IMG/VR virus record: IMGVR_UViG_3300017764_000090
Location: 1-25,549 of that record
Length of the DNA: 25,549 nt
Strand: one strand, 5' to 3'
Origin: a virus
Shown: piece after piece, positions 8,635-25,549 of the stretch
How positions within the stretch are numbered: position 1 is the first letter of the stretch
Layout of the letters: every line of letters starts with the position of its first letter
The notes under the pieces: generated by a model
The model's database searches: none
Seen by the model: the letters and a program-made list of their open reading frames with translations, nothing else
What the model was told of the DNA's origin: nothing
Position numbers and translations under genes: made by a program

Positions 8635-10644
8635 TTAAGCCTGGAATACTACTTTAACACAAGGCTGATCAGTGCCCGAGGCAGCGAACATCTCATGGAA
8701 ACCAAGTGACTGAGTAGCAACGATCAGCTGACGCTGTCGAGCAATCTCATAGTCTTGCTCTACGGTTACACCGCGGAGTCGAGGAATCACATAGTTAGCA
8801 ACATTCACAGCATATGCAACACTGTTACCAGCAGATTCTGCTTCTACATGGTCTGTAAGAACTACGGGCGAGCCGTATACAGCACCAATGCTACCAGTGA
8901 TCTTGGTTGCAATATTTGAACCAACATCAGTGATGTCTGCAAACCCTGCATCTGCAATCAGATCGTAGTAACGGTTCATGCCTACGATATATACTACGTC
9001 TGCAGGGTCGAGACCATACTTACCCATTGAACGTCGAGCGCCAAGAAGCAGACCTGAAGTCAGGCTAGCCGCGTCAATGTCGTTACCTGTGGCACCAAGA
9101 GTAGCGCCGTCAAGGTCAAGCTCACCATAGTTAGAAGCTTGAGCTGCACCTTCCAAGCCAGTAATGGCAGGAGAAGATTCCCCAAGTACGACCATCTTAT
9201 CTACTGCTTTTGCGTGAGCACGTGCAACACCTTCAGTCAACATAGGAAGAAGATTTACAAGAACTTCTTCGTCAATGTGATTGTCCATGAAAGTGGTTGA
9301 AATCAATCGATGTGCTTGCATTACTGATTGTGTAACAGCATATGTACCTGCAGTGCCACCGGCAGCAGAAAGACCTGTACCAGCGCCTGAGTTAGCAGTA
9401 CCGCCTACACCCAGCTCACTCTCACCGCCAGTGTGGAAAACGGCAGTGCTAGTATCTTTTTGCAGGGGAAGAACCATAGATTGAGAGTTCATTTGAATCT
9501 CACGGAAAAGTTGAGCTACTTTGTACTGAAACTGTACTTCTTTCTCGATCTGAGTTGAAACAGTCAAGGAAAGCAAGTTATCCGTAGCGCCTGTAATAGC
9601 ACCCGTGGGGTAGCTAATACCTGCTTTTTGGAAGACATTTCGAGCATAGTTAGTGTCAAAACCTTTTTGCGTATAAACACCCAGCATATGAGCATACATG
9701 AGGTCTTTTGCATAAGCTTCCACATTTCCTGAATCACGATCAGAGAATACACGCTTAGACTCGCGCATTGCGTCAAGCTCTGACTGCTTCTCCTTAAGGA
9801 CTTCGGCGTGTTCTGCTACAATCTTATTCAGATCAGCATCCTTCTCTTGCATCTTGGCTTCCATATCAGACATGAGGCGATCAGCGCCGGATTCAACACC
9901 GACTTTGATTGCTGCCTGTACTTCTTCTTCCTGCTGAGCTTTAGCTTCAGCGGCTTTAGCCATTTCTTGTTGTTCTTGAACTACAGCTTGCTCAGCTGCG
10001 GCTTTTTCTTCGGCCTGACGAATTGCAATCTTAGCAGCAGTCTCTTCCGCTACCTTCTTAGCAAAAGCATCTAGGTCGATTTCGGGAGTTTTAGTTTCTT
10101 CCGACATTTCGTTCTCCATTGAAGAGGAATCTTCCTCGCTTTTAAAAGTTTTCTTGAAGTCCTCATAATCCTGCTCAGAATCGAAAGACTTCGCCAGAGA
10201 GAATGTAGCTGCTTGATTACAAGGTACCGATACCACTGATACCTCAAACAACTCAGCATCCTTTATTTTTAATCCGTCGGTTTCTTCAAGGTAATCAGCA
10301 TCCTTGACTTTGAAACCGACAGAAAACGCTCCAAGGATACCTTCTTTAACAAGTTGAGCAACAGAATCAGGAGCTGATTTTGAAATTTTTGCTTTCATTT
10401 CTAGTCCGTTTTCTGTAACTTTTAACCCAGTGGCTCGGCCAATGGGTTTGTTATAATCATGATTGAACAAAATAATTGGATTTTTCTCAAAATTACTTAG
10501 TCCGCCTTTTGTCCAGGCTTCGGGTACAATTGTATCTCCTGCCCGATCAAAGTCTTTTGTACTAGCCATTCCAGTAATGGTAACGCATCCGTCATCATCC
10601 TCGAGAGCTTTGAACGTAGAAGTTAGGTTAAAAATCTTATTCAT
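8635..10644 (-). CDS. Prohead protease - scaffold - major capsid protein fusion (HK97 type)
   Basis: A single 669-residue frame carries three functions. Residues 1-155 are an HK97-type S78 prohead protease: FDRAGDTIVPEAW, the His of LFNHDYNKPIG (about His62), the Ser of GAFSVGF (about Ser108) and ELFEVSVVSVPCN. Residues about 165-305 are Glu/Lys/Ala/Gln-rich and coiled-coil-like, as in a scaffolding delta domain. Residues about 310-669 are an HK97-fold capsid protein (VSTQIEKEVQFQYKVAQLF, MVLPLQKD, a mid-domain with GARRSMGKYGLDPADVVYIV, and VVLTDHV). Head maturation would release protease and scaffold by self-cleavage. The ATG overlaps the previous stop (ATGA) and is the natural start, as the protease domain begins at once. 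An internal ATG at 10119 might give separate scaffold-capsid. Confidence 0.93.
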   Translation of the reverse strand: MNKIFNLTSTFKALEDDDGCVTITGMASTKDFDRAGDTIVPEAWTKGGLSNFEKNPIILFNHDYNKPIGRATGLKVTENGLEMKAKISKSAPDSVAQLVKEGILGAFSVGFKVKDADYLEETDGLKIKDAELFEVSVVSVPCNQAATFSLAKSFDSEQDYEDFKKTFKSEEDSSSMENEMSEETKTPEIDLDAFAKKVAEETAAKIAIRQAEEKAAAEQAVVQEQQEMAKAAEAKAQQEEEVQAAIKVGVESGADRLMSDMEAKMQEKDADLNKIVAEHAEVLKEKQSELDAMRESKRVFSDRDSGNVEAYAKDLMYAHMLGVYTQKGFDTNYARNVFQKAGISYPTGAITGATDNLLSLTVSTQIEKEVQFQYKVAQLFREIQMNSQSMVLPLQKDTSTAVFHTGGESELGVGGTANSGAGTGLSAAGGTAGTYAVTQSVMQAHRLISTTFMDNHIDEEVLVNLLPMLTEGVARAHAKAVDKMVVLGESSPAITGLEGAAQASNYGELDLDGATLGATGNDIDAASLTSGLLLGARRSMGKYGLDPADVVYIVGMNRYYDLIADAGFADITDVGSNIATKITGSIGAVYGSPVVLTDHVEAESAGNSVAYAVNVANYVIPRLRGVTVEQDYEIARQRQLIVATQSLGFHEMFAASGTDQPCVKVVFQA

Positions 10645-12591: not shown

Positions 12592-13896
12592 CTAAAAGCC
12601 GGTCTGCGATGTCTCAAATGAATACAGTGCGTATCGCAAAGCGTCAGCCATGTGAGATGCCATATTATGCCTGGGTTTCTCCCTAGCTAAATTTGGATTT
12701 GAGTCCCATTGATACTGATCAAGGCAAGAAAGTACTTGATCGGATCGTTGATCGACTAGTAGCTTATCGTTATCAACTATAGCGGCTACGTGTGCGATTC
12801 CGTCTAAAACTGACTTCTTTGCATTTATAGTAGAAATATCGTAATTCTGTGCAAAGTCAAATCGAGTTTGTTGTGCGGCGGAATCTATATAAATATAATC
12901 AATTTCCCACTTATCTATCATTTCTTGTATTTTAGCGGCATGTTGTTCCGTTGTTTTTTCAGCATCCATGTACTCATCAAGTACATAGTACACTTGCTCA
13001 TCCCAGTCATACGCAATTACACAAAAAGCAGTAGGGTCTCGATAACCTACATCAAGCCCTGCAAATACATCCATACCGCTGATATCCAACGCTTCGTTAT
13101 TAGCTATACATATTTCGTGGTTGAAGTTCCAAATCTGACCTTCGTAAGTATTAAAGTCTGCTTCATACTCTTGTCTGAATTCAGCATCTGACATACTTTT
13201 TCTTGCTTCGGCAATATCAGTCTCGGACATTCGTGGGTTGTCTATATAAGTTGCACGAATTGAGCACCACTCGGAAAATTCATCGTTAAATCCTCTATCA
13301 AAAAACTCTGCAAACCAGTTGTTCCTGCCGCGAGGCGTCGAGATAAAGATAGCTTTTGAGTTATCCTTATCAAGAGTAGGTCGAAGTGCTACGTTAAATG
13401 CGTCACGCCCGTCTGCCAACGCCGCTTCGTCAAAGATAATTAAATCGTAGCTTCTACCTACACAGGAATCAACTTGGTTTACTGAGCCCATTCTTACTGT
13501 CGATCCATTACTCAGTTCGATAACTTTATCCTTTGCGTTATCTTTTACAACTTCCAAGTCAAAATGTTTTATTAAGTTCCTTTGAAGATCAAAAGAAATC
13601 TGAGACAACGCATAGTTAGGAGACATTATAAGAATGTTTGAATTCGGAACTAGGGAGACTAGTTGGCCGATAATGTTTGCAATATAGGTTTTACCCTGTC
13701 GACGTGATACTGCCGCGCAAACGAAGCGATACTTATTATTATTTATCGCATTGATGATTGCTACCTGGGACGGTAGTGGAGTTATGCCGAGCAGCTCTAA
13801 ATAGGGCTCTACTGGCAGCTTGAGGAAGCGTGTCTCAGATTGTAAATCGAGCAGAGATTCCCATACTATATCGGCTCTGCTTATTTGTACTGTCAT
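12592..13896 (-). CDS. Terminase large subunit
   Basis: A 434-residue packaging motor. The ATPase domain has Walker A VSRRQGKT (residues 63-70), Walker B DLIIFDEAA (151-159) and the coupling motif FISTPRG (184-190). The RNase H-like nuclease domain has Asp282 in AGLDVGYRDPT, Asp338 in YIYIDSAAQ and the late MASHMADALRYA. It powers DNA translocation into the prohead and cuts concatemers. It starts just after the lipoprotein gene, with weak AGAG spacing before the ATG. The small subunit lies about 4.6 kb upstream, an unusual separation. Confidence 0.96.
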   Translation of the reverse strand: MTVQISRADIVWESLLDLQSETRFLKLPVEPYLELLGITPLPSQVAIINAINNNKYRFVCAAVSRRQGKTYIANIIGQLVSLVPNSNILIMSPNYALSQISFDLQRNLIKHFDLEVVKDNAKDKVIELSNGSTVRMGSVNQVDSCVGRSYDLIIFDEAALADGRDAFNVALRPTLDKDNSKAIFISTPRGRNNWFAEFFDRGFNDEFSEWCSIRATYIDNPRMSETDIAEARKSMSDAEFRQEYEADFNTYEGQIWNFNHEICIANNEALDISGMDVFAGLDVGYRDPTAFCVIAYDWDEQVYYVLDEYMDAEKTTEQHAAKIQEMIDKWEIDYIYIDSAAQQTRFDFAQNYDISTINAKKSVLDGIAHVAAIVDNDKLLVDQRSDQVLSCLDQYQWDSNPNLAREKPRHNMASHMADALRYALYSFETSQTGF

Positions 13897-19088: not shown

Positions 19089-19685
19089 TCACCCCCACTG
19101 CAAAGCCATAGCTGCAGCGATTCCAAAAAATGTTACTGATCGTTCTTTGCCTTGACCACCACCAAATTTATCATACCCCGTATCACCTTGGTTACTCCAA
19201 CGGGGCTTATCGTTTACATATCTAGGTTCAATATATTCTGTGGGCTCTAAGTGAGGCAGCCCTTTTAACCATAATCCTGTTTTCTTTGATGCATCCTCTC
19301 CAAAGTTGTAGGGTTGTACATACTGAGGTTTTGGCATAAAATCTAATCGAGTGTTAATACAACCTACGGGATTTTCTATGCACATCTTTTCTACCGGGGC
19401 TTTCCAGAGTTGTGTGATAAATCTAAGTGCTTCTTCTGTCTTTTCAGCTCTGCCTTCAATTTTGTTATTCCAATGTAATCCAGAAGCAGCCAGATAAGTG
19501 CAAGGAGGGTGCAGAATAACAAGGTCCCATACGCCACCATTATATAGTGCGTCAAGTACATCTCCTTGTATGTGCGGACCCCGCGCCTCTGTTGCAAGTA
19601 AGTCGCAGGAAATCGCATCATGTCCCATTGCTAGGAAACAATCTCGTACAGTACCGCTAAATTCGCATCCAACTAATATTCTCAT
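19089..19685 (-). CDS. Small C5-cytosine-methyltransferase-like protein
   Basis: A 198-residue protein with the order of C5-MTase motifs: motif I-like MRILVGCEFSGTVRDCFLAM, motif II-like HDAISCDL, QGDVLD, motif IV-like HPPCTYLAASG with the catalytic-position Cys after Pro-Pro, and motif VI-like CIENPVG. The canonical enzymes are longer (usually 300 or more residues) and have a target-recognition domain, which is not visible here. It may modify phage DNA against host restriction, or be a diverged relative. The ATG begins immediately at motif I and 7 bases after a perfect -10 box, so the message is probably leaderless. The 3' end is close to the TerS promoter. Confidence 0.7.
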   Translation of the reverse strand: MRILVGCEFSGTVRDCFLAMGHDAISCDLLATEARGPHIQGDVLDALYNGGVWDLVILHPPCTYLAASGLHWNNKIEGRAEKTEEALRFITQLWKAPVEKMCIENPVGCINTRLDFMPKPQYVQPYNFGEDASKKTGLWLKGLPHLEPTEYIEPRYVNDKPRWSNQGDTGYDKFGGGQGKERSVTFFGIAAAMALQWG

Positions 19686-19692
19686 GCTAAGA

Positions 19693-19722
19693 ATTATATC
19701 GCAAAAGGAGCTTCCTTGTCAA
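19693..19722 (-). promoter_or_regulatory. Consensus promoter with leaderless start for the methyltransferase-like gene
   Basis: TTGACA (19722-19717) and TATAAT (19698-19693) on the minus strand have an 18-base spacer. The start codon at 19685 lies 7 bases after the -10 box. A GGAG within the spacer cannot serve as a ribosome-binding site if transcription starts at the expected position. Confidence 0.88.
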
Positions 19723-19743
19723 GCGTTATTTTTGGCAGGTTCG

Positions 19744-19765
19744 AAAAAAGGGGCCGCAGCCCCTT
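19744..19765 (-). terminator. Rho-independent terminator after the secreted beta-rich protein gene
   Basis: A 7-bp stem AAGGGGC/GCCCCTT with a TGCG loop, followed on the minus strand by TTTTTTC, lies 15 bases past the stop at 19780. It insulates this gene from the methyltransferase promoter just downstream. Confidence 0.88.
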
Positions 19766-19779
19766 AAAAATATACTATA

Positions 19780-20325
19780 CTAGATTTTAGCCTCCCAGTG
19801 TATTCCCGTAACTGTCATTTTTCTAGCGTATCCTTCTGTAGATTTACGTTCGATAAAAGGAGTTACTTTCCAATTCTTTTCTTTATAAGTTATCCCGAGC
19901 TGGTCGCGAGCATCAAACTTTGTACCAGAATCCTTAAAGCTCCAGCGGGGTTGCCACTTTGCATAAAGATAAAAAGGGCCGTAAAGGTGAGGAGTGTATT
20001 CTGCAATAAAACGATATCTCCAGTGTGACTCCTTGTTGTTAAAATGGCGATACTCCATACGGCCTTCAAAAACTAAGTCTTTGTACGATAGGAGTTCCCC
20101 CGTGAATTTTATGCGATTTTCTTGCGTATTTACCAAATCTGCATAGCGATACATAACTTCGATAGGCCCTATTTTGTTTCCGATTTCAATATGCTTTCCG
20201 CCTTCACGATGGCGAAAAGTATACTCCCAGTTTTTATTCTTTAATTTATAGTTATATTCTTGTTGATCGGACGCTATCACAGCGGTCGGCATTGCTAAAA
20301 CTAACGCTAAAAATAAATAACGCAT
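19780..20325 (-). CDS. Secreted beta-barrel-like envelope protein
   Basis: A 181-residue protein with a clear Sec signal (MRYLFLALVLAMPTAVIAS). A mature region of alternating, aromatic-rich strands follows (e.g. NWEYTFRHREGGKHIEIGNK, GPIEVMYRYADLV, FEGRMEYRHF, HWRYRFIAEYTPHLYGPFYL, YAKWQPRWSF) and it ends in a strand VTGIHWEAKI. The pattern fits a small outer-membrane beta-barrel, like KdgM-type or other single-chain porins, rather than a virion protein. It is a monocistronic unit with its own promoter and terminator, the format of a moron gene. It could alter the host surface, for example superinfection exclusion. The AAGGAG site 6 bases before the ATG is strong. Confidence 0.65.
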   Translation of the reverse strand: MRYLFLALVLAMPTAVIASDQQEYNYKLKNKNWEYTFRHREGGKHIEIGNKIGPIEVMYRYADLVNTQENRIKFTGELLSYKDLVFEGRMEYRHFNNKESHWRYRFIAEYTPHLYGPFYLYAKWQPRWSFKDSGTKFDARDQLGITYKEKNWKVTPFIERKSTEGYARKMTVTGIHWEAKI

Positions 20326-20364
20326 AATGCTCTCCTTTCTGGCCTTGTGGAATTTTTACCACAG

Positions 20365-20392
20365 AATATAGTGTAACATAAAATTGTTGCAA
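20365..20392 (-). promoter_or_regulatory. Probable promoter of the secreted protein, with inverted repeat over the -35
   Basis: Minus-strand TTGCAA (20392-20387) and TATATT (20370-20365) have a 16-base spacer. A perfect 7-bp inverted repeat AAAATTG-TTG-CAATTTT (20380-20396) covers the -35 region and could be an operator. Confidence 0.5.
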
Positions 20393-20467
20393 TTTTATGA
20401 AAACACCAAAACAACTTTTCTCAATTTTTCTTAAGTTGTACGTGTGGGGGTGCGCGGCGCGGCTAGA

Positions 20468-20482
20468 TGAGAATGAGTCTCA
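20468..20482. promoter_or_regulatory. Fur-box-like 7-1-7 inverted repeat
   Basis: TGAGAAT-G-AGTCTCA matches the Fur 7-1-7 consensus TGATAAT-N-ATTATCA at 11 of 14 positions. It lies between divergent genes but does not overlap either promoter identified here. Fur binding is an inference; it could be an operator for a phage regulator. Confidence 0.35.
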
Positions 20483-20599
20483 TTACCGCCCCACTCCTGG
20501 CGGATCGCAAGCACAATCCCGGCCCGGGGTCAAGCATTTTTTCAAATTTTTTTTGTGACATATTCACATAAAAAAGACTGTACGGCGGGGCGCGAATGG

Positions 20600-20608
20600 T
20601 GCTATACT
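20600..20608 (+). promoter_or_regulatory. Extended -10 promoter for the rightward cassette
   Basis: TGC followed by TATACT makes an extended -10; the -35 region (near 20580) is poor. Upstream, an inverted repeat TGTGA-N5-TCACA lies at 20554-20568 and could be an activator or repressor site. It resembles a CRP half-site pair but has 5 rather than 6 bases between arms. Confidence 0.6.
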
Positions 20609-20659
20609 CTCAGCATGAGATGGGGGATTGGCTTCCATCCTAAATCAGATAGGTGGCTT

Positions 20660-20959
20660 ATGTCTAACTACACACCGGCAATGGAGCAACGCATCCGCGA
20701 CGCCGCTCCCCTCAACCTCGCCAAAGCAAAAGCATTGGCAGAGGAATTTGCGAGCGTAACACACCGCTCGGTCATTAGCAAGGCGCAGAGCATGGGCGTT
20801 GAATACGTCAAGGCCGCACCTGCGGCTCGCTCTCCGCGTCAAGCGGAACCAACCAAGGCCGACATTCTCGCGGAGATTCGTCGCGCTGTCGCCCTTGCAG
20901 ATCGTGAAGGCGATCTGACGAAGGCAGAGCTTTCCACAATCTTAATGGCGATCGCATGA
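20660..20959 (+). CDS. Small predicted DNA-binding protein, paralogue of the 24457 gene
   Basis: A 99-residue protein from the ATG at 20660, with AGGTGG 3 bases upstream. A longer start at 20615 is possible but would remove the conserved leader hairpin. It begins MSNYTPAMEQRIRDAAP, then AKALAEEFASVTHRSVISKAQSMGVEYVKA, a helix-turn-helix-like region. After a Pro/Ala/Arg linker it ends in KADILAEIRRAVAL...GDLTKAELSTILMAI. The same architecture with clear matches occurs at 24457 (LAEKF..TPRSIIAKLSALGIYQKA; MTKVDLEALLEIL). It is the first gene of the GC-richer cassette and its ATGA overlap couples it to the next gene. It likely regulates transcription or interacts with RNA polymerase; this is inferred. 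Confidence 0.78.
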   Translation: MSNYTPAMEQRIRDAAPLNLAKAKALAEEFASVTHRSVISKAQSMGVEYVKAAPAARSPRQAEPTKADILAEIRRAVALADREGDLTKAELSTILMAIA

Positions 20960-21153
20960 TCGCCTTTATCGGTTGGCTCGGGGCGCTCTGCATGGCAGGC
21001 GCGCCCTTCATCATCGATACGGACGCGGGTAAGATCATCGCAATTGCTGGCCTGCTTATGTTGACTCAACAGGCGGCGGATGGTAAACTCTGGAATCTGG
21101 TTTGCTTGAACATTGCGGGAATTATTGGATACTCTTATGCACTTTATTTTTGA
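20956..21153 (+). CDS. Small inner-membrane protein
   Basis: 65 residues with two or three hydrophobic segments (MIAFIGWLGALCMAGAPFII, KIIAIAGLLMLTQQA, LVCLNIAGIIGYSYALYF). The start overlaps the previous stop (ATGA) and the end overlaps the HAD gene by 17 bases. No family is recognised. It may anchor or partner one of the cassette enzymes at the membrane. Confidence 0.7.
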   Translation: MIAFIGWLGALCMAGAPFIIDTDAGKIIAIAGLLMLTQQAADGKLWNLVCLNIAGIIGYSYALYF

Positions 21154-21616
21154 TCTTGATCACACCGTCATTGATTCATCACACCGACAGATCACGCGGC
21201 CCGATGGCTCGCTTGATCTTGCGGCATGGATTAAAAACAACACACGCGCGAACATCATGCGCGACACACTGCTACCGCTCGCCGCACAATGGCGACTGGC
21301 AGACAAGAAAGGCGCGACTATTGTTATCTGCACTGCCCGCGTGATGGGCGCGCACGATTTCGATTTTCTCGCATCGCATGGCCTACGGTGGGACGCTTGC
21401 CTCTCTCGCCCGATGGGGAACACACTGCCAGACGCAGAGCTGAAGGAAACTCTGCTCCGCAAATACGCCACGGCTCGGCCTATGTCATGGGCGCGATTCT
21501 GCTCTACATCAATCTTTTTTGATGATAACGAATCGGTGCTCTCAATGCTTGACGGGATCGGCATCAAGGCTTATAATTCAATCTCTTTCAATCAATCGCT
21601 AAGGAAAACAGCATGA
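21137..21616 (+). CDS. HAD-superfamily phosphatase
   Basis: 159 residues from the ATG at 21137 (MHFIFDLDHTVIDSS); a TTG at 21113 is the alternative. All four HAD motifs are visible: motif I FDLDHT (nucleophile and acid Asp), motif II ICTAR, a Lys in LKETLLRK as motif III, and motif IV FFDDNESVLSML. The motif II to IV distance and small cap suggest a PseT- or 5'-nucleotidase-like phosphatase acting on nucleotides or nucleic-acid ends. It sits in the cassette two genes before a PPK2-like kinase, which suggests linked phosphate or nucleotide chemistry. The substrate cannot be told from sequence. Confidence 0.82.
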   Translation: MHFIFDLDHTVIDSSHRQITRPDGSLDLAAWIKNNTRANIMRDTLLPLAAQWRLADKKGATIVICTARVMGAHDFDFLASHGLRWDACLSRPMGNTLPDAELKETLLRKYATARPMSWARFCSTSIFFDDNESVLSMLDGIGIKAYNSISFNQSLRKTA

Positions 21617-22200
21617 TTCGTTTACGCAAAATCGCCACCATTGACACTCAGGTAATGAAGCCTAGAGACTATCAGGAAAACGGCGATCCACTCTCAGGCA
21701 TGGGCTATAACTATCTTTACGAGATTGTCGGCCTCGACAAATACAACTCGGCATTTGCTGGCGTTCGCATGACGAAAGACGGCTACGCTAAGGAATTCTA
21801 CTCCACTGGTCACAATGGCCTTTTCTCTCGCGTTCGCACTACACTGCGAGAATTCGAGCGCGTTTTTTGCGATGGTGAATTCGGCGCTCTGGAGGCTATC
21901 GTTTACGGTAACATCTGCAAGGGTGCGAATCGCTCACTCGCTCAGGAGCAATACATTCACAAGCGAAACCAGCATAGCGAGGAATGGATGCTCCCGACCA
22001 TCGAAGCGGCTACGCCTCGCGGTAAAACTCGCCCGTCCGGTTCAACTGAATTTTACAACTGGTCACCGAAACGCGCCTATGGGAAATACCTTCAGAGCAT
22101 GACGCGCAAAGCTATTGGCGAAGGGTGGCAGGATATTATCGACCACAATTTTCGCGGCCAATCTGGGTGGGCGCTTCCGACTGTCGGGCGCGAGCTGTGA
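21613..22200 (+). CDS. Protein of unknown function in the PPK2/HAD cassette
   Basis: A 195-residue protein coupled to the HAD gene by an ATGA overlap. Visible segments are MIRLRKIATIDTQVMKPRDY, MGYNYLYEIVGLDKYNSAFA, GVRMTKDGYAKEFYSTGHNG, LREFERVFCDGEFGALEAIV, and a long polar, aromatic C-terminus with TEFYNWSPKRAYGKYLQSM. It looks like a soluble alpha/beta protein with no membrane segment or clear catalytic motif. I do not recognise the family. The GC-rich codon use is shared with the cassette and unlike the left arm. Confidence 0.75.
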   Translation: MIRLRKIATIDTQVMKPRDYQENGDPLSGMGYNYLYEIVGLDKYNSAFAGVRMTKDGYAKEFYSTGHNGLFSRVRTTLREFERVFCDGEFGALEAIVYGNICKGANRSLAQEQYIHKRNQHSEEWMLPTIEAATPRGKTRPSGSTEFYNWSPKRAYGKYLQSMTRKAIGEGWQDIIDHNFRGQSGWALPTVGREL

Positions 22201-22304
22201 GATTCGGCGCGGCACTCGCCGCCCTCTACCTCGCCTATTCGGTAATCACCGATCTGGCGATCTGGGGCGCGGCGGTTTACTACTGGTGGAATGGGGGCTT
22301 TTGA
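22197..22304 (+). CDS. 35-residue membrane peptide
   Basis: A tiny ORF starting at a GTG that overlaps the previous stop (GTGA) and ending in a TGATG overlap with the next gene. It reads MRFGAALAALYLAYSVITDL, then AIWGAAVYYWWNGGF, i.e. one or two short hydrophobic segments with an aromatic end. The double overlap and open frame support it. It may be a membrane anchor or accessory for the next enzyme. Confidence 0.55.
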   Translation: MRFGAALAALYLAYSVITDLAIWGAAVYYWWNGGF

Positions 22305-22903
22305 TGAAAAAATTGCAAGCTAATCTGAACCGGCTCGCGGAGAATCTCTCCGCTCCGGTTGCGGTAATTTTAGAGGGGCGCGACACTGCGGGCAAATCCT
22401 CGACCATTCGAGAATTGACCCACTACCTACCGCCCGACCTTTACAGCGTTTGCCTATCGCACAAACCTAGCAAACGCGCAATGGCGGCATGGCTACCCTA
22501 CTGGGAAACCAAACTGCCAACGCAACCACGCATCGTGTTTTTTGATCGATCATGGTATAGCCGCGCGATGGTTCAACATCTCAACGGATGGTGTTCACCT
22601 CGACAATACAAAAATTTTATGCGGCGACATAAAAACTGGGAAGCTAACCAGCCGGTGCGCTTCATTAAATTTTGGCTTTCGATTTCGGAACAGGAACAGC
22701 AACGCCGAATAATTCAACGCAAGCATTCACCGCTCACCTACTGGAAATTTTCGGAGAATGATGAAAACGCGCTTTCACATTATGACCGCATGAGCATATT
22801 AAAAGAGCGCGTGATTGATTCGGAATGGCACACAATTAATTTCGAAAATAAATCAAAAGGAATTAAAAAATTGCTTGACAAATTATGCGGCGAGCTGGCA
22901 TAA
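22304..22903 (+). CDS. PPK2-family polyphosphate kinase-like enzyme
   Basis: 199 residues from the ATG at 22304 (MKKLQANLNRLAENLSAPVA), placed one base into the previous stop. PPK2 hallmarks are seen in order: Walker A ILEGRDTAGKSSTIRELT, the lid/Walker B segment VFFDRSWYSRAMVQH (PPK2 enzymes typically have FNRSWYNR), WLSISEQEQQRRIIQRK, and the C-terminal motif YWKFSENDENALSHYD (typically WKLSPMD). PPK2 enzymes transfer phosphate between polyphosphate and nucleotides, mostly making NTPs from NDPs or NMPs. At 199 residues it is shorter than the usual 230-300, mainly at the N-terminus. It closes the cassette; a separate promoter follows. It may feed phage nucleotide demand from host polyphosphate, or act in a defence context (inference). 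Confidence 0.85.
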   Translation: MKKLQANLNRLAENLSAPVAVILEGRDTAGKSSTIRELTHYLPPDLYSVCLSHKPSKRAMAAWLPYWETKLPTQPRIVFFDRSWYSRAMVQHLNGWCSPRQYKNFMRRHKNWEANQPVRFIKFWLSISEQEQQRRIIQRKHSPLTYWKFSENDENALSHYDRMSILKERVIDSEWHTINFENKSKGIKKLLDKLCGELA

Positions 22904-22904
22904 T
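22875..22904 (+). promoter_or_regulatory. Sigma70-type promoter for the acidic 55-residue protein
   Basis: TTGACA (22875-22880) and CATAAT (22899-22904) have an 18-base spacer and TG two bases before the -10. It overlaps the 3' end of the PPK2 gene. The leader carries GGGGATTGGC (22919-22928), 15 bases after the -10, exactly as in the cassette promoter at 20600. Confidence 0.8.
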
Positions 22905-22949
22905 GTTTATATCGACTAGGGGATTGGCCCCAGGAAATGGAGAGAAAAA

Positions 22950-23117
22950 ATGTCACACTACGTAAACGAATCCAACGCCGAAGCCTGCTACGAGGAAGCC
23001 TGCGAAGCGGGTTACGCTTTTTTTGCCGAGGCGGACTGGGACGGCCAAGCTTTCGAGGCTTGGGTAAACTGGAAAACAGACCAGCTCCTCGAGGCCCTAC
23101 CTGACGGGCCTCGCTAA
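22950..23117 (+). CDS. Acidic 55-residue protein
   Basis: A short ORF with GGAGAG 5 bases upstream. It reads MSHYVNESNAEACYEEACEA, then GYAFFAEADWDGQAFEAWVN, and ends in TDQLLEALPDGPR. It is rich in Glu/Asp, Ala and aromatic residues, with almost no Lys/Arg. It is predicted to be helical. Own promoter, strong ribosome-binding site and high acidity are features shared with small phage host-takeover or DNA-mimic proteins, but no family is recognised. Its stop codon abuts a parS-like palindrome. Confidence 0.7.
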   Translation: MSHYVNESNAEACYEEACEAGYAFFAEADWDGQAFEAWVNWKTDQLLEALPDGPR

Positions 23118-23133
23118 TGTTCCACGTGGAACA
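23118..23133. promoter_or_regulatory. parS-like site (perfect 16-bp palindrome)
   Basis: TGTTCCACGTGGAACA is a perfect palindrome and fits the chromosomal parS consensus TGTTYCACGTGRAACA, bound by ParB of the chromosomal ParABS system. It lies immediately after the stop codon of the acidic gene. No ParB gene is in the window, so binding of host ParB is the inference. Confidence 0.7.
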
Positions 23134-23145
23134 CCTCGCCCAACT

Positions 23146-23166
23146 CCTTGATTTATCAGGGATTTT
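23146..23166 (+). terminator. Possible weak terminator after the acidic gene
   Basis: CCTTGAT-TT-ATCAGGG forms a 7-bp stem with one G-U pair and a very short loop, followed by ATTTTGG. It is in the right place to end the acidic protein transcript, but it is not strong. Confidence 0.35.
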
Positions 23167-23194
23167 GGCGCGCTCGCGCCAGTAGTAGTGCGAC
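23166..23194. repeat. GC hairpin plus AGTAGTAGTGC module, copy 1
   Basis: TGGCGCG-CT-CGCGCCA is a 7-bp inverted repeat, followed directly by AGTAGTAGTGCGAC. The same pairing of hairpin and module recurs at 23264-23292. Confidence 0.75.
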
Positions 23195-23263
23195 AGCGAA
23201 GTTGCTCAAAGGTGCAAATTAAGTTGAACAAAAACAGGTACTTAACAGTTAGTCTTTGAAAAT

Positions 23264-23292
23264 TGGCGCGGGGGCGCCAGTAGTAGTGCAAC
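23264..23292. repeat. GC hairpin plus AGTAGTAGTGC module, copy 2
   Basis: TGGCGC-GGGG-GCGCCA followed by AGTAGTAGTGCAAC. On the minus strand the hairpin comes after the module and is followed by AATTTTC, so it could terminate the short transcript expected from the promoter at 23350-23322. Confidence 0.75.
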
Positions 23293-23321
23293 GGTAGTTC
23301 AAATGTGGTGTTGCTTGCGCC

Positions 23322-23350
23322 ATTATAAGTAGTAGTGCGGCAATTGTCAA
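23322..23350 (-). promoter_or_regulatory. Consensus leftward promoter, module copy 3
   Basis: TTGACA (23350-23345) and TATAAT (23327-23322) with a 17-base spacer that contains the CACTACTACT module. GGCGC follows the -10. No minus-strand gene lies downstream before the opposing genes, so it would make antisense or a short non-coding RNA. Confidence 0.85.
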
Positions 23351-23423
23351 GTCTTTTTTACGGGTGTGGTGCAAATTATTTACAATTGTGCAAGTCTTTG
23401 GTAGACCCCGTGCCCACCCTGGT

Positions 23424-23452
23424 AGTATACGTGCAAAGCCTGGCAAAGTCAA
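23424..23452 (-). promoter_or_regulatory. Strong leftward promoter
   Basis: TTGACT (23452-23447) and TATACT (23429-23424) with a 17-base spacer. Directly after the -35 the minus strand reads TTGCC, the complement of the GGCAAA motif, and a second TGCAAA lies 10 bases away. Confidence 0.8.
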
Positions 23453-23501
23453 GAACTATTTGGGCAAGGCCCGGGATAAATTTTGTAAAAGCGCGGCGCC
23501 G

Positions 23502-23531
23502 ATTATACAGTAGTACGTCGGCAAAAGTCAA
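23502..23531 (-). promoter_or_regulatory. Consensus leftward promoter, module copy 4
   Basis: TTGACT (23531-23526) and TATAAT (23507-23502) with an 18-base spacer. It is homologous to the promoter at 23350-23322: both have TTGCCG after the -35, a CTACT run before the -10 and GGCGC after it. Confidence 0.85.
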
Positions 23532-23564
23532 GTACTTTTTGCACAATTGCACTAAATAAATCGC

Positions 23565-23594
23565 TTGACAAGTCTCTGCGGGGTAGCATATAAT
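23565..23594 (+). promoter_or_regulatory. Consensus rightward promoter at the GGCAAA array
   Basis: TTGACA (23565-23570) and TATAAT (23589-23594) with an 18-base spacer. The first GGCAAA begins at the base after the -10, so a protein bound to the array would cover the transcription start. Confidence 0.85.
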
Positions 23595-23660
23595 GGCAAA
23601 TTGTGGCAAACCTGGGCAAAACGCGGCAAATTTACGAAAATTTTGGCAGATTAGGTGCAA
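23595..23660. repeat. Helically phased GGCAAA array (10-bp period)
   Basis: GGCAAA occurs at 23595, 23605, 23615 and 23625, each exactly 10 bases apart. Degenerate members keep phase at 23645 (GGCAGA) and 23655 (GTGCAA). All sites face one side of the helix, as expected of a cooperative protein-binding array such as origin iterons or a repressor/activator operator. Confidence 0.8.
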
Positions 23661-23734
23661 AAAACACTTGACAGCCGCAATTTCGTACGCCGCCCCCCGG
23701 AGTTCGCTTGCGTTGGGGTTATGACAAAAAAGAT

Positions 23735-23763
23735 TTGACATTGAGAACCGGAGGTAGTATAAT
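23735..23763 (+). promoter_or_regulatory. Consensus rightward promoter for the 23788 gene
   Basis: TTGACA (23735-23740) and TATAAT (23758-23763) with a 17-base spacer, about 25 bases before the coding start and its TCGGAGG ribosome-binding site. Confidence 0.9.
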
Positions 23764-23787
23764 ATTCATCAAATCGGAGGAAACTGC

Positions 23788-23979
23788 ATGAACGATATAC
23801 AATTCGAAGCCTTTAGCTTGTACGCAGGTATGCGTATGGATGGTATGTCTAAGCTGGATGCCTTTATGTACACCATACGGTGTCTGCTTCCAGAGGAGGA
23901 TTACCCTAATGGATACGACGATGGGGCAATCGAACTATACTCTTGGTTGAGGCAAAAGGTAAAGATTGATGAAGTTTAG
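23788..23979 (+). CDS. Small early protein of unknown function
   Basis: A 63-residue protein with a strong CGGAGG upstream (MNDIQFEAFSLYAGMRMDGM, SKLDAFMYTIRCLLPEEDYP, ending LYSWLRQKVKIDEV). It is acidic and helical. It is the first gene after a consensus promoter and its end overlaps the metallopeptidase gene by 11 bases. No family is recognised. Confidence 0.75.
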   Translation: MNDIQFEAFSLYAGMRMDGMSKLDAFMYTIRCLLPEEDYPNGYDDGAIELYSWLRQKVKIDEV

Positions 23980-24391
23980 AGTAAAAGCAAAAAAACAATG
24001 GTCTGAGGCTGAGCGTCGCTTGGCCCGGGACGCTGCAAACTTTGCAATGCACGAACTAGCGTTGGATGTAAGTCCGATCCCTATTCACATTGTACTAAAA
24101 GGCAAGAACAGCCAAGATTTCGGTGACTCTATAGACCTGGGGCATAAAGTTATTGTGCGTATTAACAAAAGCGCAAACTGGCTGGGTACTTTATTTCACG
24201 AACTAGAACACGCTCGGCAGTATGTTTACTGCGAACTTGAGCTAGAAACTGACCATGTTATATGGCGTGGCAAACTTTCTGCTAGAGATGCGGACGACTA
24301 TGAGGAGTATTGGAAATCTCCTTGGGAAGTGGAAGCAAGGCAAAAAGAGAGAGAATTATTTGCAGCATTTCAAAAAAATCTCTTGACATAA
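23969..24391 (+). CDS. Putative HExxH zinc metallopeptidase
   Basis: 140 residues from the ATG at 23969 (MKFRVKAKKQWSEAERRLAR); an adjacent TTG is less likely. The motif LFHELEHARQYVY contains HELEH, the zinc-binding/catalytic HExxH signature of gluzincin-type peptidases. WEVEARQKE downstream could supply the third ligand (Glu). The family usually acts on protein substrates. Small stand-alone HExxH proteins occur in many phages (SprT-like or toxin-linked ImmA-like), and I cannot place this one firmly. It might cleave a host repressor or defence protein. The 3' end contains the promoter of the next gene. Confidence 0.65.
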   Translation: MKFRVKAKKQWSEAERRLARDAANFAMHELALDVSPIPIHIVLKGKNSQDFGDSIDLGHKVIVRINKSANWLGTLFHELEHARQYVYCELELETDHVIWRGKLSARDADDYEEYWKSPWEVEARQKERELFAAFQKNLLT

Positions 24392-24411
24392 TCCTCAGAA
24401 CCTTGTATAAT
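24383..24411 (+). promoter_or_regulatory. Perfect consensus promoter for the 24457 regulator
   Basis: TTGACA (24383-24388) and TATAAT (24406-24411), spacer 17 bases. It overlaps the last codons of the metallopeptidase gene and drives the next gene, which has its own terminator. Confidence 0.92.
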
Positions 24412-24456
24412 ATATTTTCAAAAGTGGTAAAACAAACTAATTTTCGGGAGAAAAAA

Positions 24457-24780
24457 ATGACTGATATGACTGCAAAGGCTTCGGCCAACTATTCACAAGA
24501 GATGGTTGAGTTCATCTCTAACTCTTACTCTGCTACTCCGACTCGTGCTACAGTCGACCAGCTTGCTGAGAAGTTTAGCAAGACTCCTCGTAGCATCATC
24601 GCTAAGCTCTCTGCTTTGGGTATCTATCAAAAAGCAGAGCGTGTAACCAAGCGCGGTGAGCCTGTCATTAAGAAGGAAGTCATCGTTGCTCAAGTAGTCG
24701 AGCGACTCGGTCGTGACCTGCCTTCTGTAGGCAAGATGACCAAAGTTGATCTTGAAGCTCTGCTTGAGATTCTGAGCTAA
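24457..24780 (+). CDS. Small predicted DNA-binding protein, paralogue of the 20660 gene
   Basis: 107 residues from the ATG at 24457, with GGGAG 6-7 bases upstream (MTDMTAKASANYSQEMVEFI). The recognisable core is LAEKFSKTPRSIIAKLSALG, which fits a helix-turn-helix, followed by IYQKAERV, a linker with two Lys-rich turns and a C-terminal helix MTKVDLEALLEILS. Its layout matches the 20660 protein. It has a perfect promoter and a terminator of its own, so it should be made in quantity and early. Marine phages carry related small proteins that I recall as regulators; this function is inferred. Confidence 0.82.
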   Translation: MTDMTAKASANYSQEMVEFISNSYSATPTRATVDQLAEKFSKTPRSIIAKLSALGIYQKAERVTKRGEPVIKKEVIVAQVVERLGRDLPSVGKMTKVDLEALLEILS

Positions 24781-24784
24781 ACCT

Positions 24785-24808
24785 CGGGGCCTAGTGCCCC
24801 GTTTACTT
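24785..24808 (+). terminator. Rho-independent terminator after the 24457 gene
   Basis: A 6-bp stem CGGGGC/GCCCCG with a 5-base loop, followed by TTTACTT. It begins 5 bases after the stop codon. Confidence 0.85.
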
Positions 24809-24818
24809 AAATACTTCT

Positions 24819-25028
24819 ATGTATATAACATACTGCCGAATTGGAGCTTTGACTATCGTGCTAAATGCATGGGAAGACTATTGGCTGGCATTTCGGGAAG
24901 CGGAGTCTTTAAATAAACGGGATTACAAGGCGTACTACTTTGTGCGCTATAAGGAGAATTTTGATGGCAAAAACAATGATTTTCGACCACGCGACTACAC
25001 GAAAGTACCGTATGGTCAAGAAGTTTAA
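24819..25028 (+). CDS. Possible small protein, weakly supported
   Basis: A 69-residue frame (MYITYCRIGALTIVLNAWED, YWLAFREAESLNKRDYKAYY, FVRYKENFDG...). It is aromatic and charged and looks protein-like in its middle, but the ATG has no ribosome-binding site. Its last 65 bases overlap the better-supported next gene. An internal GTG after GGAG (near 24858) is an alternative start. It fills an otherwise empty stretch after a terminator. Confidence 0.45.
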   Translation: MYITYCRIGALTIVLNAWEDYWLAFREAESLNKRDYKAYYFVRYKENFDGKNNDFRPRDYTKVPYGQEV

Positions 25029-25179
25029 TGGTAAAAAAGTAATGTCGCATGGTGCATATCGTGCGAAGCGCAAGCCTAACTCACCTATCGTAAAGAAGGC
25101 GGAGGCCGTAAAAGCTGCTGCAAACTTTGGCAAAAGTCCTGAGTTTAAGTTCGCTATCTACGGTATTGTGGCAGAGTGA
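24964..25179 (+). CDS. Small basic protein of unknown function
   Basis: 71 residues from the ATG at 24964, with AAGGAG 7 bases upstream (MAKTMIFDHATTRKYRMVKK, FNGKKVMSHGAYRAKRKPNS, PIVKKAEAVKAAANFGKSPE). It is Lys/Arg/Ala-rich, with a helical second half. It is coupled to the next gene by its TGATG end. No family is recognised; nucleic-acid binding is possible. Confidence 0.7.
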   Translation: MAKTMIFDHATTRKYRMVKKFNGKKVMSHGAYRAKRKPNSPIVKKAEAVKAAANFGKSPEFKFAIYGIVAE

Positions 25180-25370
25180 TGGCTCAGATCATACGAGAAA
25201 TCGTAAGGCCCGGGCTATACGTTTTTAAAGTATTTAATCAAAGTGGAGCTTTGATGTATCATGGCTCTAATGAAGACACTGCGATTGCAATGAAGGCATC
25301 GTTGGAAAACCTGGAGGAAAAGCGTGCTAGAGAAGCAAGAAAGATTGGCAGTAGTAGACCGAGCGACTGA
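25179..25370 (+). CDS. Small protein of unknown function
   Basis: 63 residues from the ATG at 25179 (a GTG 3 bases earlier is possible). It reads MAQIIREIVRPGLYVFKVFN, QSGALMYHGSNEDTAIAMKA, then a charged helix EEKRAREARKIGSSRPSD. The first half looks like a small beta sheet. The start is overlapped with the previous stop. No family is recognised. Confidence 0.65.
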   Translation: MAQIIREIVRPGLYVFKVFNQSGALMYHGSNEDTAIAMKASLENLEEKRAREARKIGSSRPSD

Positions 25371-25549
25371 TACAATAGAAGTAGAAGGTCAGCGTAGGTC
25401 TTTCACAAGCCTGCAAAGAGTAAAAGATGAGCTGTGGCACAACTGGGCGCTTTCAGAGGCCGAGGTTGACAACGTAATTCGTACAATGTATCAAGAAGGG
25501 GAAATTCGTGAAACCTTTTCTCTTTCTTCCTTTTATCCTTCTACATGGG
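25324..25549 (+). CDS. Partial gene at the right edge, helical, possible winged-helix type
   Basis: The frame is open from a GTG at 25324 to the end of the window. GGAGG lies 6 bases upstream of that GTG, which is the best start despite a 47-base overlap with the previous gene. It reads MLEKQERLAVVDRATDTIEV, then RSFTSLQRVKDELWHNWALS, EAEVDNVIRTMYQEGEIRET. A helix-helix-strand pattern (VKDELW..LSEAEVDNVIRTMYQEGEI) is compatible with a winged helix. The C-terminus is outside the window. Confidence 0.65.
   Translation, partial: MLEKQERLAVVDRATDTIEVEGQRRSFTSLQRVKDELWHNWALSEAEVDNVIRTMYQEGEIRETFSLSSFYPSTW

Follow-up and report, generated by a model that had tools for sequence, protein, structure and literature searches.

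A minimal PPK2-family kinase gene of a T5-like phage lineage and its putative role in nucleotide supply

We sought to establish what a gene bearing the motifs of a PPK2-family polyphosphate kinase does in a virus: whether its product truly belongs to that family, whether it is a phage gene, and which reaction it would serve. Enzymes of this family ordinarily serve bacteria, in which they recharge nucleotides from polyphosphate reserves. The window is the whole 25,549-nucleotide stretch of DNA that was analysed. On balance we favour, with moderate confidence, a phage-adapted PPK2 of a T5-like lineage that would pass phosphate from polyphosphate to nucleotides for DNA synthesis, its activity, donor, substrate, direction and role all being putative.

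The kinase gene and its operon

The kinase gene is the last of five overlapping reading frames on the plus strand, from whose overlaps we infer translational coupling within the run:

20956..21153, plus strand: 65-aa hydrophobic (membrane-type) protein, first gene of the conserved run (from the sequence; upstream in 35 of 38 loci)
21137..21616, plus strand: HAD phosphatase, homologue of T5-like Dmp (deoxynucleoside-5'-monophosphatase) (phrog_415; FDLDHTVIDS motif)
21613..22200, plus strand: 195-aa protein of no assigned family (no significant Pfam or PHROG match)
22197..22304, plus strand: 35-aa membrane peptide overlapping both flanking genes (reading frame; related peptides by eye)
22304..22903, plus strand: PPK2-family kinase, 199 aa, minimal core without N-terminal extension (PF03976, Foldseek, VIA-align)

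The frame 22304-22903 encodes a PPK2 protein. The motifs named in the initial annotation (RDTAGKS, FDRSWYSR and WKFSENDE) were all found in it, in PPK2 order and within EGRDTAGKS, FFDRSWYSR and WKFSENDE. The proposed profile search bore out family membership, since the 199-aa protein matched PF03976 (PPK2) at E 1.1e-38 and 133.6 bits against a curated cut-off of 22.3, and 18 of the 19 distinct PDB sequences matched at E<=1 are named polyphosphate kinases or polyphosphate:nucleotide phosphotransferases (the remaining one is FosA3, E 0.38). The next Pfam family, thymidylate kinase PF02223, reached E 0.0034 and 17.5 bits, below its 27-bit cut-off and over residues 23-61 only. The best NCBIfam model was TIGR03707, the PPK2 class I equivalog (E 6.9e-44), at 150.2 bits, which is half of its cut-off of 301.8 bits and so did not reach it. 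A PHROG search with the same protein matched no PPK2 PHROG and gave four weak hits, the best being phrog_761 (thymidylate kinase, E 0.024); phrog_139, the T5-type dNMP kinase, was absent from the matches to E 1.

The predicted fold pointed the same way. An AlphaFold2 model built from 34 aligned sequences had a mean pLDDT of 82.5 and a pTM of 0.82, with residues 141-170 (the lid) weak. Its best Foldseek match was F. tularensis PPK2 with polyphosphate (5ll0; E 2.3e-14, TMq 0.87). In VIA-align comparisons the model fitted solved PPK2s better (F. tularensis PPK2, 5llb: Z 22.3, rmsd 2.2, 199 residues aligned) than thymidylate kinases (best dTMP kinase: Z 14.1, rmsd 3.3, 169 aligned). Profile and fold together thus ruled out another P-loop kinase family. 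Model residues 1-199 correspond to 33-244 in F. tularensis PPK2, so that the short N-terminus remarked on earlier is real.

The gene order around the kinase was compared at 38 loci whose upstream DNA measures 1.8 kb or more (window included, near-duplicates retained). In the run directly upstream of PPK2, the HAD gene and the small membrane-type gene are each present in 35 of the 38; the HAD gene is missing there in L026, L043 and L044, and lies farther away in L026 and L044. Between HAD and PPK2, 16 of the 35 loci with HAD encode the 195-aa protein and 16 an exonuclease-like protein. L034 and L046 fall outside both counts because their PPK2 is cut off, and in L042 the 195-aa protein follows PPK2. 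The 195-aa and exonuclease-like proteins substitute for each other at one operon site. The latter takes its label from phrog_192 (E 2.5e-5); it also matched phrog_20187 (unknown; 3.8e-44) and no Pfam family, and calling it 'DnaQ-like' would be our own reading. The 35-residue membrane peptide to which the initial annotation drew attention proved to be a genuine reading frame: the preceding gene's stop is overlapped by its GTG (22197-22199), its TGA (22302-22304) shares an A with the kinase ATG, and a related peptide, judged by eye, occupies the same site in 16 of 29 loci. For the 195-aa neighbour, the fold search returned no PDB match with E <1; the best model had a pLDDT of 84.3, and the five models ranged widely, from 84.3 to 33.1. 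R.Eco29KI (GIY-YIG), at rank 3 with probability 0.11, was discarded as its fold, this being no evidence.

The Dmp-like gene was given the start 21137 by conservation, where the ORF finder gives a TTG at 21113. Its product matched phrog_415 at E 3.7e-17, and the Dmp of Yersinia phage phiR2-01 matches the same PHROG at 5.7e-50; a relative of the Dmp-like protein from locus L037 is 36% identical to phiR2-01 Dmp over 86 aa (E 9e-12). phrog_415 bears the name polynucleotide kinase and also matches in 10 of 14 control genomes, and going by that name the protein may act on nucleic-acid ends instead. Pfam HAD_PNKP scored 28.2 bits in the L037 protein, over the cut-off of 27.6, and 18.5 bits in the window's, under it. 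The accessible text of PMC12629751 places T5 dmp in the first-step-transfer region.

Several further features lie around the operon. Reading frames 20555-20959 and 24310-24780 flank it and belong to one single-linkage similarity cluster across 43 loci; 20555-20959 had no family match in Pfam or PHROG. Directly 3' of PPK2, a cluster of perfect and near-perfect sigma-70-type promoters on both strands spans 22875-24411, and 19500-25549 holds 19 promoter-like sites against 8.7 in shuffles (sd 3.0). Minus-strand promoters at 23531, 23452 and 23350 face back into the operon, antisense to it; at least one strict minus-strand match lies downstream in 17 of 29 loci, and three others have <400 bases downstream. 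Three copies of AGTAGTAGTGC were seen in 23165-23342, two behind a GC-rich hairpin and one within the spacer of a perfect minus-strand promoter, and we describe them as operator-like.

The phage lineage and the PPK2 clade

The remaining features of the window identify the phage:

8635-10644, minus strand: 669-aa ORF; contains a prohead protease domain and matched families of head maturation protease and of major head protein
12592..13896, minus strand: terminase large subunit, T5-like (phrog_2, E 1.6e-46; 50-51% identity to T5-like phages)
19089-19685, minus strand: DNA methyltransferase (phrog_757, E 6.5e-50)

Judged from the terminase and the late gene run, the window phage is T5-like (Demerecviridae-like). 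Its terminase, portal, head protease/capsid and tail genes share one strand, as in phiR2-01. A relative contig (G003) encodes a split NAD-dependent ligase, likewise found in phiR2-01, together with two helicases, primase, polymerase, exonuclease and both ribonucleotide reductase (RNR) subunits. Protease and capsid may be fused in the 8635-10644 frame, where phiR2-01 has two genes. The window gave no Rfam match and no tRNA.

A host gene caught by assembly was ruled out, because the operon is seen repeatedly in viral contigs and because, among 30 further carrier contigs, 14 encode a T5-like terminase that shares 68-86% identity with that of the window. No terminase match was obtained in the remaining 16, which measure 9.6-42.4 kb and lack end repeats. 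That every phage of the lineage carries the gene was not borne out by a survey of terminase loci: within the flanks examined, the best 80 loci held the PPK2 gene in two and the Dmp-like gene in three, and 20 whole terminase contigs held PPK2 in two, both already-known carriers. Most terminase contigs have too little DNA on the PPK2 side; L297 has about 16 kb there, in which the gene was not found.

Relatives are numerous in viral contigs. A single-protein search gave 50 candidate stretches, 46 of which encode a relative at 59-100% identity. With a 34-row profile the figure was 304 of 333, the best 80 at >=57% identity and including the contigs from the single-protein search. A megaphage PPK2 query gave 130 of 131, the best 80 of which were taken further; the profile and megaphage sets may share members. 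The initial annotation was therefore wrong to call PPK2 not a standard phage gene, given these counts and the published virus-encoded ppk2. Virus-encoded ppk1 and ppk2 are listed among auxiliary genes of reservoir sediments in the part of PMC13188868 available, and its reference 51, a 2025 Water Research article, has a title on virus-encoded polyphosphate kinases. Phage-borne PPK2 as such is already known, and is not rare in environmental data; our literature search, with most subscription papers outside it, found nothing on PPK2 in T5-like phages or on a T5-like subfamily.

Named phage records contributed 15 matches among 50,697, all <60% identical to the query. Eight were inspected, among which were three unannotated megaphage records and two human-fecal scaffolds without annotation. 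An Acinetobacter contig has ubiE and recC beside its PPK2 gene and looks bacterial; it and Pseudomonas Y15 carry tandem-domain PPK2s, and the Moraxella Mcat6 match falls in a region without annotated genes. Among cellular genomes (one per species, 84,980 species, searched with two short patterns), the best of the matches listed was 43% identical.

The phage sequences form a clade of their own. A 69-row tree placed its 17 T5-phage rows in a single clade (support 100/100; stem of 1.88 changes per column); in a quicker tree of 76 rows, the 28 phage rows were one clade with SH-aLRT 100 and a stem of 2.08. Jumbo-phage PPK2s fell outside it, on several branches. These (L304-L383) come from contigs of up to 294 kb, with stop-to-stop frames of 329-1596 aa. 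A Nei-Gojobori analysis of 29 kinase genes gave 171 usable pairs out of 406, and the 99 pairs with dS <1.5 had a median omega of 0.138 (range 0.046-0.287).

Active site and competing readings

Residues were compared across 71 distinct phage core sequences from 125 viral loci (the window's own being L001; L045, too short, and L046, a fragment, were left out), 80 jumbo-phage rows (53 distinct) and 78 cellular rows. D27, K31, R36, D81, R82, R87, K122, R135, R139, K148, K183 and position 86 are identical in all 71. The PPK2 motif rule given in the accessible text of PMC11641546 comprises Walker A DxxGK, Walker B RSxY and lid arginines, and each of these is invariant in 71/71. Loss of the catalytic Asp/Arg residues, a possibility raised by the initial annotation, was thus ruled out. 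The same text assigns Asn, Gly or Glu after RSxY to PPK2 classes I, II and III. The residue there is Ser in all 71 phage sequences and fits none of the three. It is Asn in 80/80 jumbo rows, and Ser (17) or Thr (31) in 48 of the 78 cellular rows, which were selected by patterns that favour Ser after DRSWY; Arg at 87 is common to all four groups compared. The cellular PPK2s with Ser/Thr at the class position (L050-L129, many from marine SAR86, OCS116 and Marinimicrobia; a Ser-biased sample) also lie outside the three-class rule. Since the cellular rows were pattern-selected, the nearness of these marine types does not identify a donor.

The polyphosphate contacts proposed for F. tularensis PPK2 (FtPPK2) in the text seen of PMC4748334 are His76, Arg174, Arg178, Lys184, Lys228, Lys229 and Arg232, which align in that order with positions 41, 135, 139, 145, 183, 184 and 187 of the phage protein. 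The counterparts of R174, R178 and K228 are kept in 71/71. Position 41 is Tyr in the phage protein; since the jumbo rows and the Ser/Thr-type cellular rows also most often have Tyr there, we do not count the missing His76 equivalent as an argument. At position 145, 48 sequences have Thr and 23 have Lys; at position 187, 45 have Ile, 20 have Arg, five have Lys and one has Thr; position 184 is variable. The two changes are paired, with Thr145 and Ile187 together in 45 of 71 and Lys145 and Arg187 together in 18. About six of the ten tunnel residues listed for EbPPK2 in the portion of PMC12257356 available have an invariant basic counterpart in the phage protein, matched by spacing only. Ahead of Trp175 the phage protein has six residues fewer than FtPPK2.

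Nucleotide-metabolism genes were surveyed in ten carrier contigs of 43-101 kb. A Dmp-like phrog_415 match was present in nine, the RNR large subunit in eight and ThyX in five. Thymidylate kinase was over its cut-off in none of the ten (the ten weak matches were the PPK2 gene itself by coordinates). The dNMP kinase PHROG was likewise found in 0/10, with 14/14 control genomes positive, and a protein search for the T5-type dNMP kinase (Dnk), run without a positive control, found it in 0/10. Because the contigs are fragments, the missing kinases are only suggestive.

Judged from the Walker B Asp, Arg 87 and the profile scores, the phage kinase would be nearer the NDP-phosphorylating class I than the AMP-type classes. 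This nearness favours NDP substrates, and as the products of a class I RNR are dNDPs, phosphorylation of (d)NDPs would be the simplest story. The most likely, if putative, function is to supply the phage with nucleotides by moving phosphate from polyphosphate onto (d)NDPs or NMPs, and the replenishment of NTPs suggested in the initial annotation is plausible. In the mechanism that we propose, the kinase would bind the end of a polyphosphate chain over the Walker A loop and beneath the arginine lid, the nucleotide would sit in the opposite cleft, and one phosphate would be passed to it. The phage reductase would make dNDPs, and PPK2 would raise (d)NDPs to (d)NTPs or recharge ATP, sparing host ATP. 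Dmp-like phosphatase, RNR, ThyX and PPK2 would together form a nucleotide supply for phage DNA synthesis.

Three other readings have to be weighed against this one. A different donor is possible, since many members have substitutions at the outer positions 145 and 187 and since the loop ahead of W175 has lost six residues; the long stem would allow for it as well. An enzyme derived from PPK2 may use ATP as a (deoxy)nucleoside monophosphate kinase, standing in for the T5 dNMP kinase while its polyphosphate channel decays, and such a variant is a real rival because 45/71 sequences have lost both outer tunnel residues. The fold is common to PPK2 and thymidylate kinases (Z 14.1), neither a dNMP nor a thymidylate kinase was found in the ten contigs, and a functional change could give a stem of the length seen in both trees (1.88 or 2.08). 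However, all 71 sequences retain R36, the lid arginines, K148, K183 and the Walker A Asp, K145 is kept in 23 and a basic residue at 187 in 25, and the Pfam E-value for PPK2 is 35 orders of magnitude better than that for thymidylate kinase; we regard this reading as possible and somewhat unlikely.

If the enzyme chiefly made or drained host polyphosphate, it would alter the stress state of the cell or counter a polyphosphate-dependent defence, as the reversibility of PPK reactions (stated in the accessible part of PMC12257356) and the two small membrane-type proteins of the operon might suggest. Yet the neighbours and the genome content indicate nucleotide metabolism, and no defence gene or polyphosphate-binding partner was noticed among them, so that we think this improbable. 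A passenger gene without function, for which only the patchy distribution speaks, is barely credible against an omega of 0.14, an active site invariant in 71/71, a single fully supported clade and a conserved operon. We therefore retain the polyphosphate-driven supply of nucleotides as the preferred reading. Its boldest form, a fourth kind of PPK2 that evolved in T5-like phages, charges deoxynucleotides from host polyphosphate alongside the phage's RNR and Dmp-like phosphatase and has replaced the ATP-dependent T5 dNMP kinase, is a speculation that we would put forward only tentatively.

Should the kinase use polyphosphate, the phage lineage would draw on an energy store other than ATP for building its genome, and its replication would be linked to the phosphate state of the host; the exchange of dNMP kinase for PPK2 would be directly testable, and a natural minimal PPK2 of 199 aa would be useful for nucleotide recharging.

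Comparison with known systems

What is new here is a monophyletic minimal subfamily with no N-terminal extension, a loop six residues shorter and Ser at the class position. With PPK2 class I (F. tularensis FtPPK2, S. meliloti SMc02148; TIGR03707) the phage kinase shares the fold, the Walker A with its Asp, the DRSWY Walker B with its Asp and the following Arg, the R-x3-R lid and the WK lid motif. Unlike class I, it lacks the N-terminal extension, has six residues fewer before the conserved Trp and Ser for the class I Asn, and has two polyphosphate-site residues replaced in many members. The PPK2s of jumbo phages and megaphages (LR745206, LR756501-3 and 80 viral contigs) are likewise phage-borne, with the same core and catalytic residues, but have the class I Asn in 80/80 rows (53 distinct), frames of 329-1596 aa and separate branches. 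Ser/Thr-type PPK2s of SAR86, OCS116, Marinimicrobia and others resemble the phage kinase in the class position, at up to 43% identity among the matches listed; they differ in being longer (open frames of about 254-373 aa), with the loop present and with N- and C-terminal extensions. As for the T5-type dNMP kinase and Dmp, the window phage is T5-like and a homologue of Dmp is the operon neighbour of the kinase, but the T5 dNMP kinase family is unmatched by the kinase and was not found in the ten contigs. The T5-like phage phiR2-01, which has the dNMP kinase, is not among the 15 named phage records with a PPK2 match.
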